Origin: Malus domestica
Lineage: Eukaryota; Streptophyta; Magnoliopsida; Rosales; Rosaceae
Reading direction: 5' to 3'
DNA length: 64,000 nucleotides
Assembly: GCF_042453785.1 (NCBI RefSeq)
Contig: NC_091663.1
Location: 35,726,001 to 35,790,000 of the forward strand
Made by a program: the position numbers and the translations under genes. Under the pieces are notes generated by a model, which was not told the DNA's origin, made no database searches, and saw nothing but the letters and a program-made list of their open reading frames with translations. Shown here one piece after another: positions 26,219 through 38,751 of the stretch (the stretch's first letter is position 1; each line of letters starts with the position of its first letter).

Positions 26219-26340
26219 GTGGTTATATACATACACGGCGTTTTACATTTCATACACCCCTCTCAATCTTCGACTGTCGGATCAAATGAATTGAAGATGA
26301 TCAAATAACATAAATTAATAAGGGGTGTATGAATAGCACG
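26219..26340. mobile_element. Short TIR element, family X copy 2
   Basis: It holds TTCATACACCCCTCTCAATC at the left and the complementary AAGGGGTGTATGAATAGCACG at the right, around a centre with GTCGGATCAAATGAATTGAAG. The centre closely matches 61051-61080. Left end uncertain. Confidence 0.5.
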
Positions 26341-26752
26341 GAATTGGATCCTCTTCTGAGCCCAAGGAGATGATCCTCTTGACCAAGGAACGTGGGCCGT
26401 TGGATTTTCATCAAACGACTATAATTATTATAACTTTAAAAGGACATCCATGTTTGTAACCGTTGAAAGAAAATCCAACGGCCCACTTTTATTGGTCAGG
26501 AGGATCCTCTCATTGGGCTCAGGAGAGTATCCAATTCCGAATAGCACCACCTACACATATCATTGTATTATTAACATGGGACAAAATGATGACAATGTAC
26601 ATGTGTCATCTAAGTTCTTCTCACACCTCAAAGTGCAAAAAAACTCATGTGCTCAATAGTCTATCAAGTGGATTGTCTGATTCACTTACAAAGACCAATG
26701 CATCGGGTTGTTTAACTACATAAGGTCGGGTGATACTTAAATACAAGAGAAT

Positions 26753-26905: not shown

Positions 26906-27188
26906 GGCCTATTTCTTCATGGGCAGGTCGATCAAACAATTTATTTTGTCTAACTATTGAACACAAGAATTTCTTAAAGGTACACATTATTATTAACTTG
27001 ATCGTAATGCATATCATAACCGAAAATTGTAAACTTTTAAGTCACTGCTTGAAGATTATTTATGTAAAAAAAAATTGTCAAATTAATTGTTATGTCAATT
27101 ACAAAATATTCTTCATTTTGCGGAGTAATTTTTCAGTATGCTCGAAACACGGAGCAAAACATTGCATGTCATTATAATGAATGTAGTG

Positions 27189-27609
27189 TGTTTGTACCAT
27201 ACTTAGGGCCTCCGTATTTAGATCTCGTATAAATACTCGGGGGACTCAAATGTAATTATGTAATAAAAGAGGGGGCAAATATGTAATAAGTGAGGAGCCC
27301 TTATTCTATAAAATGACTCCTCACTCTCCTCATTATGAGATGCCAATTCCTAAGCCTCATCACATCCCTTAAGCTCTAAGCTCTTTCAAAGCTCTCACTC
27401 TCATATTCAGAGCTTTCTCTCCCTCAGAAATACAATATCAGTGTGGACGTAGCCTAAACCTTGGGGTGAACCACGTACATCTTGTGTTTGCTTCCTTATC
27501 TCTATCATTTACATACTTATCCACACTAGTGACCCGAGCAATCTAGCGAAGGTCACAAACTTAACACTTTCTGTTATACCAAAGTCCTCACTGATTTTGT
27601 ACATCAACA
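27189..27609 (+). repeat. 5' LTR of element A
   Basis: TGTTTGTACCATACTTAGGG to GTACATCAACA. It contains CCCTTATTCTATAAAATGAC (TATA-like, about 27301), the segment that recurs in the internal array at 31800-32160. Confidence 0.85.
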
Positions 27610-27881
27610 TTTGGCACCGTTTGTGGGAAACGACACGAAAAATTATGTCGGTTCTCTTTAATTTTTTCACATCCACCGTAAATCTGCAAAATCTGCAAAA
27701 ACCCAGACACAGTAAAAATCCAAATTCCAACACCTGTGCTCTTCCCTCCCTATCTGTTCTTATAAAAGCAACATCCAAATTACAAAAGCAATATTCAAAA
27801 GCTCCTGGAAAAACACCTCCACTTCTCCCTTAACCTTCACACGTGTCTAAATCCCCGCCACTTCAGTCATGTGATCTTGAC

Positions 27882-29469
27882 TAGGGCTGGGTTCGGTTCT
27901 TATCGGTTCGGTTTTTTGCCAAAACCGAAATCAAACCGAAATTTCGGTTCGGTCCAAATTTTTTTCGGTTTTTTTCGGTTCGGTTTTTTCGGTTCGGTTT
28001 CGGTTTTTTTTTTTTTTCCTCCAAAAAATGCAAAACAACCACAAAAAATGCACATTATTCTCTTCGGTCTCGTTCAACAATGGCGCATTTTTCCCTTCAA
28101 TCTTGTTCATCAATGTCGTGTCCTGCACTTCAAACTTGTTTACGCTTAACGAAGCATTTTTCTCTTCAGCCTCGTTCAACAAAGTCGCATTTTTCTGTTC
28201 AATCTCTTTCATCACAGGCCATTGTTGCTCTTCAATCTTTTTTCGCTCAATTCAACATTTTCGTCTTCAGTCATCTAGAAGCCTATGCACAAATGTAGTT
28301 AATATCAGCCATCTAGATTGCTTTGGAAATGGTAAAATAAGTAACCATATTCAGGTTAAAACTTAAAACCAATTGAAGAATCTGTGCTAAACACGTCACA
28401 AAGAATCTGTGCTATTGAGTAAAATAAGTAACCATATTTCTGCTGCTCGTTCAGAAGCACATCAAACAACCATGTTTGTTATATATTAACCATGTTTCTG
28501 AGTTCTGACCCTTTAGTTTGTTTATTCACATCAATTTTCCCACTTAAATTTTCACAAGCCATTTCATTATTTTGTCCCTCCCTCACCTCCAAAATCTTCC
28601 TCTCCGCTTCCACTTTAAATTTACTACCAGATGGATTAAACTAGTTATTCACAATCTCAGACACAACAAACAACAAGTAATCTGCAGCAACTCAAAACAA
28701 ATTGCAAAACCATGAAATTTAGAAGCTACAGATCAAATTCATCAGAAGTTCAGAACCAACGAAATTGAAAAACAAAATCTGCAAAACGCATCATGGGGTG
28801 AGAGACTAACCTTGCAAAGGAGGGGATTTGTGGGTCGACACTTGAGCCTTGAACCGGCGAGAGAAAGTCGACGGCGAGTGAGAGGGATAAGAGAAAGATC
28901 GCTGAGAGACGGCGACGGCGAGTGAGAGGAAGGGTTGCTGCAGGGTCTGCACGCTCGCAGCCATGGGGATCGGTGCTGGAGCTTGAGGGAGGACTGAGAG
29001 AGAAGAGGGGACGAGAGAGAGAATAGGGAGAAATTGGAGGCATGGAGGAAGTCTGGAGGTGTGGCTGCGCAGAGAGAGATGAGGGGAGTGACAAATAGAA
29101 AAAGTGTGGCTGCTAGGGTTTTATTGATTTGATTATAAAAATTAAAAAAAATCCCAAAATCCGGGGGGCGTGAAGAGGGTTCGAACCCATGCGCTCCACC
29201 AGCTTGGAAAGTTTCACTAACCAACTTCACAACAAGTTCTGTTTTGTTATAAATTGTATGACTAAACTATTTATAAACATTGAAAAAAATAATTAAATAT
29301 ATATATCGGTTCGGTTCAGTTCGGTTCGGTTTTTGAACCTAAAAAATCGAAACCGAACTGAACAGATTTGGTTCGGTTCGGTTTGAGAGTTTCGGTTCAG
29401 TTTTTTTCGGCTTCGGTCCGGTTTGGTTTTCGGTTTTTTTCGGTTTTCGGTTTTTTGAACCCACCCCTA
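27882..29469. mobile_element. Non-autonomous hAT transposon nested in element A
   Basis: 1588 bp. The terminal inverted repeats are TAGGGCTGGGTTC and GAACCCACCCCTA. Flanks carry a perfect 8-bp duplication ATCTTGAC (27874-27881 and 29470-29477), diagnostic of hAT. About 130 bases at each end are packed with TTCGGTT/AACCGAA words, the usual layout of subterminal transposase-binding sites. No transposase is present. The interior holds an 11-residue repeat region on the minus strand (about 28063-28250) and a minus-strand open frame at 28742-29230 without recognisable product. GGGTTCGAACCC near 29179 resembles a Pol III box B. Confidence 0.9.
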
Positions 29470-29489
29470 ATCTTGACACATGCGCCCTA

Positions 29490-29631
29490 ATATTTGTTGT
29501 TTGATATTCTTAATTTTTTCCCTCAGCTCGGTGATTTTTGGAATATCCTAGTAAGCTTCAAAATGGCTACATAACTGGTTCACAGCCTCCAACTTTGCAG
29601 CTGCCTCTTTATATTGTCGTTTTGAAGCCAT
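29490..29631 (-). pseudogene. VPS53 fragment captured in element A
   Basis: The minus strand encodes SKRQYKEAAAKLEAVNQLC, SHFEAY, then a stop, then DIPKITELREKIKNIKQ. This matches the conserved N-terminal coiled-coil part of VPS53, a subunit of the GARP/EARP tethering complexes. It is antisense to the element and to the other four fragments. The in-frame stop and short length make it a dead fragment. Identification rests on recollection of the conserved family sequence. Confidence 0.75.
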
Positions 29632-29751
29632 GCTCAACAGCAGACGAGCATGGTCAGGCGATGAAGAGCATTTTCGTCTTAATTTTGTAGATTTTATACA
29701 TGAGTTCCTGCCTCCACGGCATGCGTAGCAGCGGCGAGATCTTCTTACGTC

Positions 29752-29910
29752 GTCCCTGATAACCTCACCAGGGAGTAGTACGTGCACCTGGTGAAGCTCT
29801 CCGAGTAAGCGGAGCACTATGAGGAGATGGTCCAGTTCATGGAGAAACTGGTCGTTGGTTTGACTCCAGCCGCTGAGCTGACCATCGAAGAGCGCAACCT
29901 TCTCTTTGCG
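29752..29910 (+). pseudogene. 14-3-3 fragment captured in element A
   Basis: The plus strand reads NLTRE, stop, YVHLVKLSE, stop, AEHYEEMVQFMEKLVVG, then ELTIEERNLLFAE. This is the first two-helix region of a plant 14-3-3 protein, nearest the epsilon-like group by its LVVG insertion. Two stop codons and loss of the remaining ~80% of the protein show it is not functional. Confidence 0.85.
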
Positions 29911-30008
29911 GAGCTTCGCACAGACTGTCCCCTTTTGTCAGAAGCAGAAAGAGAGCAGAAACAAAGAGAGAGAGAAGTGAAAGAAGAAAAAATGGAGAAA
30001 TCTACCTC

Positions 30009-30276
30009 TTGCTTCAAATTATCACCTGTGGTAAGGATTCAGCGGACAACGATGATGTCGAAGCTCTTGAGAGTAAGAGTTCGAGTGACAAGCGCGGATG
30101 GAGTTTTGGGAAGAGATCTGCACGGCATCGAGTGTTGAGCAACACTGTTATCAGAGAGACCCCCACTTCTAGACATAAGGAGATCCCAGAATCAGCTGCT
30201 CTTAATTTCCAACCACCACTGAAGCACTATTGTTCCAGAAAAGATATCGGTTATACATTGCACTGATGAGAAACCT
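30009..30276 (+). pseudogene. IQD (IQ67-domain, IQD31/32-like) N-terminal fragment in element A
   Basis: ITCGKDSADNDD, then SSSDKRGWSF and KRSARHRVLSNTVI correspond to the N terminus of IQD31/32-type calmodulin-binding scaffold proteins. Near 30215-30230 the frame shifts by one base and similarity resumes as VPEKISVIHCTDEKP. The IQ67 calmodulin-binding domain is not included. Confidence 0.75.
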
Positions 30277-30280
30277 TAGT

Positions 30281-30547
30281 TGGCCGCTTTGAATCACCAT
30301 GGGGAATGCAATGCAGTTTCTAAATAGCTGAATTGCCAAGCTACCTTTGACTATGTCCGAGTCAGAAGCAAAAGCATTTTTCCAGTCAGATATTGAACGG
30401 TTTATATCTGAGAATATCATACTTGCTGATAAAGTAATGGTCAAGCATGCAGTTAGCAAAATCAGGGATGGTGATGTTCTTCTAATGTATGGGTCATCCT
30501 CTGCAGTTGAAATGTTGCTTTTACAGGCCCATGAGCTTAGCAAATAG
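30281..30547 (+). pseudogene. eIF2B delta subunit fragment in element A
   Basis: After WPL, stop, ITMGNAMQFLNS, stop, IAKLPL, an open stretch follows with SDIERFISENIILADKV and KIRDGDVLLMYGSSSAVEM. This is the regulatory-domain region shared by eIF2B alpha/beta/delta, closest to delta. Three stops including the one at 30545-30547 mark it as a relic. It abuts the IQD fragment with no spacer and the GMP synthase fragment within a few bases. Confidence 0.8.
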
Positions 30548-30550
30548 TTT

Positions 30551-30643
30551 TGTGTTGAGGTCGTGGCGCGGAGCCAGCAGAGATCGGTGGCTGCAATTGA
30601 GAGCCCGACTAGGAGGTTCAATGGGTTGCAATACCATCCATAA
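30551..30643 (+). pseudogene. GMP synthase (glutamine amidotransferase) fragment in element A
   Basis: EVVARSQQR and SVAAIESPTRRFNGLQYHP, followed by a stop, match the end of the class I glutamine amidotransferase domain of GMP synthase, where QYHPE contains the catalytic His; here the codon after QYHP is TAA. About 30 residues only. Confidence 0.7.
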
Positions 30644-31229
30644 GTGCTTAATCGCGACCCATTCCCTGCATCTTCTTTACAGGGTGGTAGCAAATCATTT
30701 TCTGAGAAAGCAAAAGTGGAATAAAAGAAAAAGAGAAAAGGAAAAGTAAAAGGCAATTGGTTGGCGACAGTAGTGTAACTTTGTGGCTTTCCTATCATGC
30801 TTCCTTACTTTTTCATCCCAGCAAGCAGAAAGAATCCAACCCCTGCAGTTTTGAAAAGCAGAAAAACAGTGGGAAACAAAGCAGAAAAACAGAAACAAAA
30901 GCAAAAGCAAAGCATAAAAAACCGAGAAAAAGTAGAAAGCAAAAGATAAGCTTTCCTCTGCGAGAGCACATGGCTACACTGCAAAAGCAAGGAATAAACA
31001 CCTCACCAGAATGATGTGATTTACTTTCCTTATTTTTGAATGATGTAATTTATTTTTCATATTTTTTGAAGATATTTGTATAACCTTATCAGAGGGGTAA
31101 TCTAAAAAAAAAAAAAAACGGCAAGCCCAAAATAATGGGCTGCAATGTCATGTGGAGGTTAAAGGCCCATATGCCCAAAAGAGCCAGACCATCTATTATC
31201 ACCAACCTGGTGATCAAACGTACGCCTAG

Positions 31230-32165
31230 TACTTCAAAATTATACATGAGCACTACTCATGTCAATCATACATAAATTATACATGAGTACTACTCATGTC
31301 AATCATACATAAACATTCATGAGCATCACTCATATCAATCATAAATAAACATTCATGAGCATCACTCATGTCAATCAGCTTTGAAAGCTTCATTTACAAA
31401 ATCTCTAGTTTCAAAAGCTTCATTTACAGAGCTCTAGTTTCAAAAGCTTTATTTACAGAGCTCTAGCTTCAAAAGCTTCATTTACAAAAGCTCTAGCTTC
31501 AAAAACTTCATTTAAAAAGCTCTAGCTTCAAAAACTTCATTTACAAAAGCTCCAGCTTTGAAAGCTTCATTTACAGAGCTCTAGCTTCAAAGCTTCATTT
31601 GCAAAGCTTCACCTACAAAGCTTCAGTGCAGGGTATACAAATACCGCCTTCGAACAACCGCCACTTCGGCCCATACATGGATTCAATTTGAATTCTCCAA
31701 CCAACAGACTCTATTGACCGAAGACTTGGTGGACTACATTATGTACCATATATTGGGCCTCAACTGAGCCTCATGAAAAATACTTGGGGGACTTAGCCCA
31801 TTATTTATGTATTAAGGAGCGAACCTTTATTTTATAAAAGGGACTCCCTCACTTTCATTAGAAAGCACACATTATTTATGTATTGAGGAGCGAGCCCTTA
31901 TTCTATAAAAATGATTCACTCACCATCATTAGAGAGCATCGCCGTCAGTTGAGCAACCGCCTCGCCACGAGCATCACTCCTAGCCCATTATTCATGTACT
32001 GAGGAGCGAGCCCTTATTCTATAAAAGGGACTCCTTCACCATCATTAGAGAGCATCGCCGCTTGCTGAGCAACCGCTTTGCCGCGAGCATCAACTCTTAG
32101 CCCATCACTTATGTATTGAGGAGCGATCCCTTATTCTATAAAAGGGACTCCCTCACCATCAACGC
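31230..32165 (+). repeat. Internal repeat arrays of element A
   Basis: Three consecutive arrays. (1) 31236-31375: about five units around CATGAGCATCACTCATG, an imperfect palindrome, with CAATCATACATAAA spacers. (2) 31380-31625: about nine units of roughly 25-32 bp with AAAGCTTCATTTACA and GAGCTCTAG. (3) 31800-32165: four units of about 70-115 bp, each with GAGGAGCGAGCCCTTATTC, TATAAAAGGGACTCC and, in most, an AGAGAGCATCGCCG tail. The third unit resembles the TATA region of the element's own LTR. Confidence 0.8.
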
Positions 32166-32373
32166 CATAAGCCGAGCTAACCAAGGCAACATAAGCCACA
32201 AGCAGAGCAGCCTCGCAACATATGCTACTTTTAGTTGAGCATCATTTCACTTTAAGTAATGCCTCATATCAAGTATCAGTTCAAGACGACATCTAGCTAC
32301 TTCGGCCCACACATGGACTGAATTTCACGTCTCCAGCCAAAAGACTCTCTTGACTGAAGACTTGGGGGACTAC

Positions 32374-32793
32374 TGTTTGTACCATACTTAGGGCATCCGT
32401 ATTTAGATCTCGTATAAATACTCGGGGGACTCAAATGTAATTATGTAATAAAGGAAATGGCAAATATGTAATAAGTGATGAACCCTTATTCTATAAAAGG
32501 ACTCCTCACTCTCCTCATTAGGATATGCCAATTCCTAAGCCTCCTCACATCCCCTAAGCTCTAAGCTCTCTCAAAGCTCTCACTCTTATATTCAGAGCTC
32601 TCTCTCCCTCAAAAATACAATATCAGTGTGGACGTAACCCAACCTTAGGGTGAACCACGTACATCTTGTGTTTGCTTCCTTGTCTCTATCATTTACATAC
32701 TTATCCACACTAGTGACCGGAGCAATCTAGCGAATGTCACAAACTTAACACTTTCTGTTGTACCAAAGTCCTCACTGATTTTGTGCATCAACA
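32374..32793 (+). repeat. 3' LTR of element A
   Basis: TGTTTGTACCATACTTAGGG to GTGCATCAACA, preceded by polypurine CTTGGGGGACTAC. Followed by CAGTG and a 210-bp spacer before element B. Confidence 0.85.
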
Positions 32794-33003
32794 CAGTGTT
32801 TCGCACTTGTTTCGAACTCATTGAAAAATCTCTACGTTTTGTTATAGGTACCTCTCGTTCTTATTCATTGATTGTGGGCCCAACATAAGGTTATCTTCAA
32901 CCGAAAGAGGGCTAAAGGGTTCCCTTTAGCCCGGTAGTCCTGCAATAAATTATATTTTAATGAACAGTGCTAGTACATATTTTATGCCATCTCCAATCGA
33001 GGG

Positions 33004-33350
33004 TGTTGATGCACAAAACCGGAGGTCTTGGAACAACGTAAATCCGACCGTGAATCTGCAAGTAATGTAAATGACACAAGATGTATCGTGGTTCACCCCA
33101 AGGTTTGGGCTACGTCCACATTGAATATGTATTTCTCTGAGAGTATTTGTGAGAGAAGGAGCTCTGTAAATGAAGAGCTTTGAGAGGGGGTGAGAGGCTT
33201 AGGGTTTGTGAGGGTGAGGATGCCCTTTTATAGAATAAGGGCTCCTCCCCTAATTACATATTTGCCCATTCCTTTATTACATAATTACATTTAAGTCCCT
33301 CGAGTATTTATACGAGGTCTAAATACGAGGCCCTAAATATGGTATAAACA
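33004..33350 (-). repeat. 3' LTR of element B
   Basis: On the plus strand TGTTGATGCACAAAACC to TATGGTATAAACA, adjacent to GTAGTCCCCCAAG, the complement of the polypurine tract. Confidence 0.9.
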
Positions 33351-33539
33351 GTAGTCCCCCAAGTTTTCAGTCAAGAGAGTCTTTTGGCTGGAGACTTGAA
33401 ATTCAGTCCATGTGTGGGCTGAAGTAACTAGATGATGTTCTTGAACTGATGTTCGATATAAGGCAGTGCTCAATCTGAAATGACGCTAAACTAGAAGTAG
33501 CACACGCTGCGAGGCTGCTCGGCTCGTGGCTTATGTTGC

Positions 33540-34601
33540 CTTGGTTAGCTCGGCTTGCGGCGTTTGAAGGTGAGGCAGTCCCTTTTATAGAATAAGGGCT
33601 CACTCCTCAATACATGGATGATGGGTTAGAGTTGATGCTCTCTAATGGTAGTGAGGGGAGTCTCTTTTATAGAATAAGGGCTTGCTCCTCAATACATAAA
33701 TATGGGTTCGGAGTGATGCTCACGACGAGACGGTTGCTCAGCTGGCGGCGTTGCTCTTTAATGAATGTGAGGGAGTCCCTTTTATAAAATAAGGGCTCGT
33801 TCCTCAGTACATGAATAATGGGTGCTCTCTAATGAAAGTGAGGGAGTTCCTTTTATAGAATAAGGGCTCGCTCCTCAATGCATAAATAATGGGCTAAAGT
33901 TGATGCTGGCGGCGATGCGGTTGCTCAGCTGGCGGCGTTGCTCTCTAATAATGGTGATGGAGTCCCTTTTATAAAATAAGGGATCGCTCCTCAGTACATG
34001 AATAATGGGCTAGAGTCCCCCAAGTATTTTTCATAAGGCCCAGTTGAGGCCCAATATATGGTACATAATGTAGTCCCCCAAGTCTTCGGTCAATAGACGC
34101 TGTTGACTGGAGACTTCAAATTCAATCCATGTATGGGCTGAAATGGCGGTTGTTCGGAGGCGGTCTTTGTAGACCATGCACTGAAGCTTTGTAGGTGAAG
34201 CTTTGCAAGTGAAGCTTTGAAGCTGGAGCTCTGTAAATGAAACTTTTGAAGCTGATTGTCATGAGTGATGCTCATGAATGTTTAATTGACATGAGTGATG
34301 CTCATGGATGTTAACATGAGTGATGCTCATGAATGTTAACATGAGTGATGCTCATGAATGTTTATGTATGATTGATATGAGTGATGCTCATGAATGTCTA
34401 TGTACGAATGACATGAGTAGTGCTCATGTATAATTTTGAAGTACTGGGTGTACTTTTGATCACCTGGTTGGTGGCATAAATGGCTAGTTACCAAATTATT
34501 TTAGAGTACGGTTTGTACATTTCATCACCTGGTTGGTGGTATGAATGGCTGGTTGCCAAATGATATTGGAGTATGGGTTGTACATTTCATCACCTGGTTG
34601 G
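33540..34601 (-). repeat. Internal repeat arrays of element B
   Basis: Counterparts of the element A arrays in the opposite orientation. 33540-34020 has five units with GTCCCTTTTATAGAATAAGG and GCTCCTCAATACAT, several with GTTGCTCAGCTGGCGGCG. 34255-34440 has about six units around CATGAGTGATGCTCATG. 34435-34601 starts a further array with TTCATCACCTGGTTGGTGG, resuming after the nested insertion at 36639-36715. Confidence 0.8.
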
Positions 34602-36638
34602 TGGTGTGAAAATTAAGTTGACACACAAATTAAACCCTATTGATGACAATTGTAGTAATGATGCAAGTAGGGATCGTTCTAGACCGGGGATTAACTAGGG
34701 ATGCTAATCAACACAAATAAGACTCAAAAACACTAAACTAGACTCTATAGACTCAAAACTAACTCAAAACACTCAAAACAGCAAATAACAACAAAAAAGA
34801 CTCAATTCTAGACCTAAAAAAGTGATTTGGACGAAAATAGAACTTTAAAGACTCAAAAGACTTAAAAGAAACAAGTTTTGACTCTAAAAACAAGACTTAA
34901 AAGTAAGGGGGTTGGTTTTGACGAAATTGGACTTTAAAACATAAACTTTGAAAACAAAACTTAACAAAAACGATTTTGGATGAAAAAGAATGGTGAAAGG
35001 CTAGTTAGAAGGTTCCTTCTCCACACATGAAACATATGCATACGACTCGATTTCCAGTTACTCTTTCAACAAACCATGAATGACAATGTCCCAAATTAAC
35101 TAGATTGTACCAATTAATTCTCAGATTTCCCTAGATTCATTGAATTGAATGGAATACGCATTACAACCAAATTATTCTTATCAAGGACCCTAACTATGGA
35201 ATACGCATGATAGAGACACATATCAAAGATCATTAAGTTCAATGGAAATCATAAACATTGATGAGGCATTCATAACTATGGAATACGCATGTTACTCTTG
35301 CCAAGGATTTACTTAACACAATCGTGACTAGCGACTTTTACTACTTATGAATATAAGTTAATAACGATTAGGTGAAATTCCCTTATACTCTAGCATCAAA
35401 TTCATGCATGCGAACTAAGTATGCATCCTTAATTAACATACATAAACATGTTATCAATCAAATAGATAAGTAAACCACATTTACGATTCATGAAATCATA
35501 ACTGGAGGAAATCAAGTCATATAAAACATATGATCATGGCTTTGAATTCCCCTCTAACTATAAAGAAATTAGTTCCTCATGTTCGCAAATAAACAAAGAT
35601 AAATAAATCTAAACATTGACATAAAGATAGAAAACACCTAGAAACGCTCCAACAATCCAAGCTCCTTGAATGGCATGCACGGCTCCAAGAGTCTCATTCT
35701 TCCTCCTTTGCAAACTCACGGCACACAAGAGATGATTGGGTGAATGATGTAGTGAAAATCTGGTAGAGGGTGGTGTCTAAATGGTGCGGCAAAGGGTTGT
35801 ATTTATAGGCTGAAAATCCAGCCCCTAGGTAGCAAAGGAAAAGGATTTAAAGGCCTAAGTTGCATAGGAAAATAAAACACAATCCTTGAAGGAAAACAAA
35901 TCAGAAATCCAAAGGGAATTAGGGGATAAGGGGCGGCACCAAACCAGGAGTGGATAAGGGCTTCTAGAAACCAAAATCCCAAGGGATTTGGGTAAAAACT
36001 CACGGCACAAAAGTGGAGGGAAAGTGGCTGAATTGCAATGCAAGGCAAAGGTCTTCTAGAAAGGTTCTAGGCGCCATTTTTGTAGGAAAGGATTAGGTTT
36101 TCTAGAAATCTGATTTTAAGCATCCTAATATAGCTAGGAATCCTCCCAAGTAGCTGAAATGTAGGTGGATTAGGATTAGGATAAGATAAGATAGGATTGG
36201 ATAGGATAGAGTTTGGATAATGTTTTGGATAAGGTTTCTTCACTTGAGCTGATTCTTTGGCTTTAACTTCCCTTCTTCAAGTAGGAAACCTTGTTTGAGT
36301 AGGAAACTTCAATCTTCTAGGAATCCAACTTCACTTAGGAATCATTCCTCAACTAGGAATCCTTTTTCAACTAGGAATCCATGTTTGACTAGGATTTCAT
36401 CTTCAATTAAGCACTTTCCCACTTCAATTAGGAAACTTTGCATCTTCAAGTCTTCAACTTTGACACATATTCCTAGCTCTTCAATCCTTCAAATTCGTCC
36501 ATTCTTTGTGCTCCACATGCATGAGCTCCATTCTAGCTCAATTTTGCTCCAAAATGCTCCAAATTGCATCATTTTGCTTACTTTGTCCTTAAAACCATAA
36601 GAACTAACTAACTAAGGCGCATAAATATGCTCCTATCA
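34602..36638 (-). mobile_element. Solo-LTR-like insertion nested in element B
   Basis: 2037 bp, TG at the left and CA at the right, flanked by a perfect 5-bp duplication GTTGG (34597-34601 and 36639-36643). Removing it rejoins the surrounding GGTTGGTGGTA array unit. On the minus strand it starts TGATAGGAGCATATTTATGC, a beginning common in plant LTRs. No internal domain or second LTR was found, so solo LTR is the simplest reading. About 36290-36400 contains degenerate copies of AACTAGGAATCC. Confidence 0.75.
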
Positions 36639-37084
36639 GTTGGTGGTAATAGCGGCAGGTTGTCGAATAATTTTGGAGTACTGGGCGTACTTTTGGTCAC
36701 CTGGTTGGTGCTATTTTGGGCTTATGGGCCTTCGCCCTCCACGACATGCCAGCCCATTAATTTTGGGCTTTGCCCTTTTTTTTTTTTTACACCCTCTGAT
36801 GGGGTTTATACATATTACCCTCTGATCGGGTTTACACATATTACCCTCTGATGGGGTTTATACAGATATTTCCGAAAGATAAAATAAATTACATCATTCA
36901 AAAATAAGGAAAGTAAACCACATCACTCTGGTGGGGTGTTTATTCCTTGCTTTTGCAGTGCGGGTGTTTATTCCTTGCTTTTGTTTGTGTTTTTCTGCGG
37001 CACTCTCTCTATCTTTTCATCTGGCAGACAGAAGGAATCATAATAATAGGAAAATTTTTGCTTTTCTTCTTTTCCTTTTCATTT

Positions 37085-38060
37085 TCACTTTTGCTTTGCA
37101 CCTCTGTCTTTGCTTTTCTCCAGACATCCCTTGTTTTTCTTTAAAGAAAAAGAATATGCATGATGAAAGTGTGGGTATCTTCTGGTCGACAAAAACCATC
37201 CATGTGGGTGGTCGATTAAATCCTTCAGACTCATCATTGCTCTAGTCCACTCATCTTTGACCACCATCTCTAAAAGTACAAACCCAGAGTCCTTAGGTGT
37301 AGACCGGATCTGTGATTGCAAGCCGGTCAACCCGGGCGAATCAGGAGGCCTCGCTGCCTCTCTCTTCAGATCTTCCTCGCAGTTTTGGTGAGAACGTGGT
37401 TGCCTCTCTCTTATTCCAACTTTCTCGATTTCATGCAATTCCTGAGCTTTAGACGCCATTTCCGAGTTTAAAGTTCAAAACTTTGGCCTCCAACCCCTTC
37501 TCGCGCTCCTCAACCTCCTGCTGCCGTGTCTGGAGCGAGTTCCGCTCCGAGTAAAAACCGTCCTAGAGCTCCTCGAACCGAGTTTTGGACGAGTCAATGC
37601 GGTCCAAGAAGTGTTTCCACTGCAGGGCCAGATTCCTCTGCTTCAACTCCGGTTCATCCTAACCGGACAACATCGATTCCATCGCTGGCGTTTCTGCAAC
37701 TTCTGAGTTACGATTTTCAGTTTTGCTGCAATACGACGATGTATCGGCTATGGCAGAAGCTTCAAGCTTTCTTTTTCAGCTCGACGTTCTCAGTCCTTCA
37801 GAGCATATGCAGTGCTCAGTGGCTTAATTAATTGCAAGATGTTGGATCGGGACGGCGTCGTTTTTGATCTGGTCTTCGTCGTTCTCGGAGTCGACGACGG
37901 AGACTGGCTGGTAGAACTCGGCGGCGGGTGCATCGTCGTCGTCGTCGATGTTGGTGTCAGAATCGCTTCCGTTCTGGTAATCTGTGACTTGGATGACGTC
38001 AGGCGGAGCTGTGGCGTTCATCGTCGTCGTTCCAACTTCCAGCGGTGAAGAGAACAAAAA
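37085..38060 (-). other. Possible captured coding DNA in element B, source unknown
   Basis: On the minus strand, an ATG at about 38022 opens a high-GC acidic frame (MNATAPPDVIQVTDYQNGSD, then NIDDDDDAPAAEFYQP) resembling a first exon. Further on, an interrupted frame at 37490-37690 reads like a coiled coil (ELKQRNLALQWKHFLDRID, stop, then SLQTRQQEVEEREKGLEAK). A third open stretch spans 37085-37459. Base composition differs from the surrounding AT-rich element. I could not assign any of these to a family. Confidence 0.4.
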
Positions 38061-38399
38061 ATCTGAGAAGAGTGAAAGCGTTTTGGGGGAAATAGACCGG
38101 AAACAAAGCCTCTTTTCCTTTTCCCCATTACAGTGAGTAACAGATGCTCTTAGGCTCAGATCTGAACCAGATCCTCTCAACTAAAATGACTTGAATGGGA
38201 CTGCCCTCACTGAACCAACTTTTATATCCATACGTAGATATATAATTCGGTGGAACAAACTACAAAGCAAAGGGAAAGAGAAGAAGAGATGAATATTTGG
38301 TTTCTAAGTTTTCGTGATTTTGCAGATTCACGGCGGTAATGAAAAAATGAAAGAGAACCGACACAACTTTTCGTATCGATTCCCACAGACGGCACCAAA

Positions 38400-38746
38400 T
38401 GTTGATGCACAAAACCGGAGGTCTTGGAACAACGTAAATCCGACCGTGAATCTGCAAGTAATGTAAATGACACAAGATGTATCGTGGTTCACCCCAAGGT
38501 TTGGGCTACGTCCACATTGAATATGTATTTCTCTGAGAGTATTTGTGAGAGAATGAGCTCTGTAAATGAAGAGCTTTGAGAGGGGGTGAGAGGCTTAGGG
38601 TTTGTGAGGGTGAGGAGGCCCTTTTATAGAATAAGGGCTCCTCCCCTAATTACATATTTGCCAATTCCTTTATTACATAATTACATTTAAGTCCCTCGAG
38701 TATTTATACGAGGTCTAAATACGAGGCCCTAAATATGGTATAAACA
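38400..38746 (-). repeat. 5' LTR of element B
   Basis: Same ends as the copy at 33004-33350, preceded on the plus strand by GACGGCACCAAA, the complement of the PBS. Followed by GAGGG. Confidence 0.9.
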
Positions 38747-38751
38747 GAGGG

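Follow-up and report, generated by a model that had tools for sequence, protein, structure and literature searches.

A gag/pol-less LTR element of apple that carries fragments of five host genes, in a family whose members appear to share captured modules

Multi-gene capture by LTR elements is already known from maize Bs1 and soybean GmaRetroS15. The latter is a TRIM without gag or pol that is bounded by 5-bp target-site duplications (TSDs); its captured sequence comes from three host genes and consists of exons alone. Most of the gene-capturing soybean TRIMs had two or more copies, and those with captures were 1,172–1,449 bp long (PMC4717578). Bs1 is described as an LTR retroelement with transduced sequence from three host genes, in a review that also treats abnormal template switching (PMC13317346). 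Pack-MULEs are DNA transposons that carry both exons and introns (PMC4717578).

The locus studied here, element A, is a 5.6-kb LTR element at positions 27189–32793 of a 64,000-nucleotide stretch of Malus domestica DNA (the window; C3:35726001–35790000), and own-genome searches were made over the 651-Mb, 19-contig assembly. Like GmaRetroS15, A is a gag/pol-less LTR element with a 5-bp TSD and intron-free host pieces, but it is ~4.0 kb long without its hAT-like insert, draws on five genes, and has modules that occur recombined in sibling elements. It resembles Pack-MULEs in carrying and rejoining host-gene fragments and differs from them in that the four introns spanned by its pieces are missing and its ends are LTRs. 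LARD-type elements are a further class of non-autonomous LTR elements; like them A has two LTRs, PBS-like and purine-rich sites and no coding domain detected, whereas a good part of its interior is captured mRNA sequence, which differs between copies. In its PBS and PPT A presumably resembles the Tat lineage of Ty3/Gypsy. The LARD class is named, and Rosaceae elements with TG..TT or AA..CA ends are described, in PMC5659011; these atypical ends of the TGTT/AACA Rosaceae subfamilies were not found in A, whose ends are TG..CA. In our literature search we met no account of an apple family of this kind, nor one of captured modules in different combinations among the elements of one family; it is this mosaic sharing that is the unusual part.

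Element A and its fragment array

Table 1. Positions of the parts of element A, and of its neighbour B, counted from the first base of the window
Feature	Position	Strand	Remarks
Left TSD, TAGTG	27184..27188		4 of 5 bases same as right copy
5′ LTR, 421 bp, TGTT...AACA	27189..27609	+	pairs with 32374–32793
Putative primer-binding site, TGGCACCGTTTGTGGGAA	27612..27629	+	just inside 5′ LTR
Leader	27630..27881	+	from sibling alignments
hAT-like insertion, 1588 bp	27882..29469		later event; inverted ends TAGGG(C/G)TGGGTTC, TSD ATCTTGAC
VPS53 fragment, antisense	~29497..29758	-	exons joined, three introns missing, 88-nt exonic deletion
14-3-3 fragment	29744..29905	+	first-exon sequence
Spacer, ~59 nt, between 14-3-3 and IQD pieces	29906..29964	+	present only in A and C11 copy
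IQD32 fragment	29965..30283	+	sequence just upstream of start, exon 1, part of exon 2; intron gone
eIF2B-delta fragment	30282..30564	+	inside one exon; nearer C9 gene than C17 duplicate
GMP synthase fragment, glutamine amidotransferase domain	30552..30640	+	inside one exon
3′ internal region	30641..32355	+	common to many family members
Putative polypurine-tract region	32356..32373	+	from position and composition only
3′ LTR, 420 bp	32374..32793	+	pairs with 5′ LTR
Right TSD, CAGTG	32794..32798		4 of 5 bases match left copy
Element B	33004..38747	opposite to A	same LTR family, perfect TSD CCCTC

The two LTRs of A are direct repeats of the TG..CA type, flanked by a 5-bp TSD (TAGTG/CAGTG) that matches at four of its five positions. 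They show 24 differences in 420 columns (94.1% identical, K2P 0.060), which at 1.3e-8 to 4e-9 substitutions/site/year would give an age of roughly 2–8 million years. By convention we take TGGCACCGTTTGTGGGAA to be the primer-binding site. Part of the leader (27838–27881) can be aligned only with siblings C11, C4, C5 and C17, all of which carry VPS53 sequence; the leader query gave 2553 first-look candidates of which the best 40 were scored, and this is not a copy count. Ten of the longer ORFs between the LTRs were scanned and none matched a Pfam family at E 0.01; among these frames no gag/pol domain and no reverse transcriptase were found, and with its paired LTRs and TSD it is the gag/pol-less LTR element that an earlier note on this DNA had taken it to be. 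Tandem repeats with units of 29–30 nt lie in its 3′ internal region (31377–31604), and outside A the window holds a MITE-like inverted-repeat pair (86 nt, 84%, 29 nt apart) at 26339–26539.

Positions 29497–30640 of the element hold an array of VPS53, 14-3-3, IQD32, eIF2B-delta and GMP synthase (GMPS) pieces, and all five have matching genes in the apple genome itself at 89–100% identity per aligned piece, as follows (own-genome DNA E-values in brackets): the VPS53 piece matches, in antisense, exons of a gene on C9 (3.4e-32) that has a duplicate on C17; the 14-3-3 piece matches the first exon of a C8 gene at 89.5% (7.1e-54); the IQD32 piece matches two exons and the sequence before the start codon of a C15 gene at 94 and 95% (4.2e-92 and 1.0e-36), while the duplicate gene on C8 is 88 and 77% identical; the eIF2B-delta piece is 283 nt of one exon of a C9 gene at 93% (8.7e-117), from which A differs by 6.1% over 179 nt as against 9.5% from the C17 duplicate; and the GMPS piece is ~89 nt of one exon found on C14 (92%, 7.1e-26) and C6 (90%, 2.8e-25). 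Pfam recognised Vps53_N (1.9e-13) and IF-2B (4.7e-10) in the fragments, 14-3-3 (1.6e-5) and GATase (0.011) under the curated cut-off, and no family in the IQD piece. The parent exons of VPS53, 14-3-3, eIF2B and GMPS are all recognised by Pfam (the parental VPS53 peptide, like the gene row of our distance table, was built without the 88 exonic nt missing from the element). Searches of solved structures matched 14-3-3 (3.4e-16), eIF2B delta (1.7e-14) and, weakly, GMP synthase (0.024), and returned no match for the VPS53 piece. In a protein search with 85 residues of the IQD piece, 81% of which aligned, the best relatives came from Malus domestica at 93% identity, and Pyrus proteins annotated IQ-DOMAIN 32 matched at 91%. 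A sixth captured gene at 30634–30745 was considered and rejected, the best matches being copies of the family (best 40 of 64 candidates scored).

These own-genome, Pfam, structure and protein matches bear out the earlier note as to the five sources, their order and the antisense orientation of VPS53. All five pieces are also broken, as it had said: stops lie inside the VPS53, 14-3-3, eIF2B and GMPS pieces, and indels affect VPS53 (deletions of 1, 1 and 11 nt) and IQD (deletions of 1 and 2, insertion of 1). Its statement that hardly any spacer is left holds for the two joins it named, IQD|eIF2B (a 2-bp overlap) and eIF2B|GMPS (a 13-bp overlap, imperfect, as is that of VPS53|14-3-3). Between 14-3-3 and IQD lie ~59 nt, for which a genome search found no source and matched only A and the C11 copy.

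Alignment to the parent genes shows that the VPS53 piece of A has lost three introns (about 357, 154 and 96 bp) and the IQD piece one of 565 bp, and in the parents GT...AG can be seen at the limits of these introns; the 14-3-3, eIF2B and GMPS pieces each lie inside one exon and are uninformative on introns. Because these four parental introns are absent, the alignments, which the earlier note had proposed as a check, indicate that at least the VPS53 and IQD pieces of A came from spliced mRNA. A missing 88-bp stretch of VPS53 was considered as a further intron and rejected, since alignment shows it to be exon sequence that is deleted in five element copies; a check of the reading frame of the parent exons gave no match. 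Among the siblings, C12b and C14 carry 14-3-3 sequence without a 239-bp intron, C4 and C5 carry VPS53 without a further 105-bp intron, and the C16 element has sequence from a C14 locus without two introns; in the C4 element and in element B the sole sign of intron loss is that the genomic matches are split. No retained intron was seen in the comparisons made.

A second complete array and modules in sibling elements

Two of the 39 own-genome matches to the array cover the whole query, namely A itself and C11:34363163–34364328, at 91%; shorter matches include C16:9861535, C7:29366467, C10:11989628 and C5:14824260. The C11 copy has LTRs of its own (358 bp, K2P 0.093) and a perfect TSD (AGGTT/AGGTT), and a dispersed repeat is all that its flanks have in common with the window, so the array moved as a unit, and the combination has been inserted at least twice, on C3 and on C11. 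Relative to the genes, A and C11 have two nonsense changes in common (CAA to TAA in 14-3-3 and CAG to TAG in eIF2B), and decay had thus started before they separated. We take C3 and C11 to be duplicated chromosomes in apple; the C11 array was nonetheless rejected as a whole-genome-duplicate counterpart of A, since TSDs and U5 differ and the flanks have only the dispersed repeat in common. Both whole-array matches are LTR elements, and the case that the earlier note had named as contrary to it, the same array at a locus without LTRs, was not seen among the 39; the other copies of the element that it had asked for are this C11 array and the partial siblings described next.

Twelve sibling elements were cut from 20 genome regions and compared with A; all siblings but B had been recovered via fragments in common with A. 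In C11, C4, C5 and C17 the VPS53 sequence begins with one and the same base of the parent gene (L010 position 2798), and in A it begins with the equivalent base of the duplicate gene on C17 (the raw match of A to the C9 gene continues through a weakly similar stretch), and the 88-nt exonic deletion is identical in all five copies aligned (A, C11, C4, C5 and C12c); identical start and identical deletion point to one VPS53 capture. C4 and C5 are not trimmed copies of A, because their VPS53 sequence runs past A's breakpoint. VPS53 distances are about equal for A to C11 (4.8%) and A to the gene (4.4%), which does not favour a history of shared modules. A longer, spliced 14-3-3 capture in C12b and C14 exceeds both breakpoints of A, with which it has no common boundary and from which its distances are ambiguous; the piece of A may derive from it or be a separate capture. 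A, C11, C6, C16 and C12d all have the eIF2B|GMPS join, and what lies upstream of it varies. C6, C10a and C10b have a second join in common, on the upstream side of eIF2B (L014 position 4474), and C16 and C12d a third (L014 position 4335). C12c has the VPS53|14-3-3 join with other neighbours. C10a and C10b are two members lying back to back and inverted at C10:30673501–30683500, each with the same eIF2B piece; their TSDs do not match, and they are possibly an inverted duplication.

The affinities of A also change along its length. A and C11 are 87–95% alike over 29470–31038, and C11 is still the nearest sibling over 31039–31188 (86%), but in each of the six windows compared between 31189 and 32372 there is a sibling nearer to A than C11. 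The U5 end of A, the same type in both of its LTRs, matches C4 alone among the 12 siblings and differs from that of C11, whereas the LTR middle (27329–27468) is nearest C11, so the LTRs of A and C11 are not wholly different in origin. The earlier note saw one element that had picked up five genes; the captures are real, but VPS53 and the eIF2B|GMPS pair occur in siblings with other neighbours, and element A probably did not itself collect all five pieces.

The earlier note had called five sources in one gag/pol-less LTR element uncommon; within this family multi-gene capture seems not to be so: all four further members that were probed match several host loci, three of them (C16, C6 and C4) having been chosen through fragments in common with A and the fourth, neighbour B, not for its content. 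C16 carries the eIF2B tail and GMPS plus matches to the locus pairs C14/C6, C13/C16 and C1/C15. The C6 element matches several further host loci, and in one of them we take a reading frame to be the N-terminus of AMP deaminase. C4 carries VPS53 and matches to C3/C11 and C9/C17 pairs, perhaps also C15. In B the segment 37407–38299 matches at least three host locus pairs (C4/C12, C5/C10 and C3/C11), with split matches in two. From the paired, exon-like matches the matched host loci appear to be genes; the loci inspected were those on C14 and C13. The LTRs of B are 99.1% identical, which together with its multi-locus exon matches would suggest that the capture process continued until recently. 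A high-copy repeat of ~1.96 kb is nested in B (34640–36597), and more than 30 of its best 40 candidates are near full length at 91–97%. Between 31200 and 34473 the 3′ regions of A and B form long inverted repeats that point towards each other, with arms of up to 241 nt that are 92% complementary, a possible source of hairpin RNA.

Proposed assembly of the mosaic and its alternatives

We consider it probable that A belongs to a large non-autonomous LTR family of apple type and is a mosaic of captured host mRNA whose modules were exchanged among members. In the mechanism we propose, element RNAs and spliced host mRNAs would be packaged together with reverse transcriptase supplied in trans, and during cDNA synthesis the enzyme would leave the element RNA for a host mRNA and then return, so that pieces without introns become joined with very little overlap; members would later trade their captured modules by jumps between co-packaged element RNAs, and A would combine a VPS53 module on its leader side, the 14-3-3 piece, the IQD piece and an eIF2B–GMPS module. 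From what is seen directly (loss of introns in VPS53 and IQD, the common junctions and deletion, LTR and TSD boundaries, two insertions, different U5 types) we infer template switching, co-packaging and trans-supplied enzymes. That both LTRs of A have the same U5 type would be expected of an exchange during reverse transcription. The IQD capture of A and the 14-3-3 capture of C12b and C14 extend upstream of a start codon, and these few cases would be compatible with a jump close to where the mRNA template ends. The short or imperfect overlaps at the joins count against the mechanism. The antisense VPS53 piece has an orientation that ordinary minus-strand switching onto mRNA does not give, and it would need an extra step such as a switch in plus-strand synthesis; transduced genes are usually in sense orientation according to PMC7264820.

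Could one element instead have taken up all five mRNAs serially, the siblings with fewer pieces being its deletion derivatives? The joins and the two nonsense changes common to A and C11 do mean that the complete array has one origin. However, losses from A cannot create the additional VPS53 sequence of C4 and C5 or the 14-3-3 sequence of C12b and C14, and upstream of eIF2B, where A has IQD, 14-3-3 and VPS53, the C6 and C16 elements match other loci; serial capture is largely refuted for VPS53 and we regard it as improbable overall. Exchange of modules at the DNA level, after capture by reverse transcription, is a less remote alternative, though still an unlikely one. Ectopic recombination or gene conversion would be favoured by the many copies and by inverted neighbours such as A/B and C10a/C10b, but one exchange would usually change one LTR, while both LTRs of A have a U5 unlike that of C11, and among 14 elements TSDs are perfect 5-bp repeats in seven and match at 4/5 in A and C16 (three are non-matching and two elements gave no LTR pair).

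The least probable explanation in our judgement, and a very improbable one, is that the fragments were assembled by a Pack-MULE- or Helitron-like DNA capture later overrun by an LTR element, or that processed pseudogenes had already formed a cluster into which an LTR element then inserted. Some DNA transposons typically shuffle gene fragments, and a hAT-like element does sit directly beside the array, between it and the leader. Yet its ends bound only 27882–29469 and the fragments lie outside them, it has its own 8-bp duplication (ATCTTGAC), and sequence comparison shows that the C11 copy lacks it; as a capture agent it was therefore rejected. The four introns are missing, both full arrays are found inside LTR elements with their own TSDs, and inspection of the aligned joins by eye showed neither poly(A) nor a target duplication of their own. 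Neither an LTR-free copy of the array nor a retained intron was found in this genome.

Coding potential and meaning of the captures

Neither A nor C11 has an apparent intact chimeric ORF, whereas Bs1 is reported to have formed a transcribed and translated chimeric gene. The longest ORF of A in a captured frame (103 aa) is of a length that also arises in 300 simple shuffles, whose 95% point is 109 aa. An opposite-strand ORF of 198 aa is above the shuffle range; it has no Pfam match and is reduced to 72 aa in C11. In searches with join-spanning ORFs one had no homologue and one matched a single, weak 14-3-3 protein. A regulatory effect through antisense transcripts or small RNAs is possible, and the antisense VPS53 piece provides a defined case for small-RNA effects on a parent gene.

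We think it somewhat likely, with less assurance than for A itself, that the whole non-autonomous family is an RNA-level exon-shuffling engine, in which host mRNAs would be copied routinely and arrays built stepwise by trading of modules. Multi-gene capture by LTR elements is known from few examples, and here related copies keep intermediate states (longer single-gene captures, common joins and module swaps), which make the order and mechanism of capture testable by sequence. The family would allow the jumps of reverse transcriptase between host and element RNAs to be counted.
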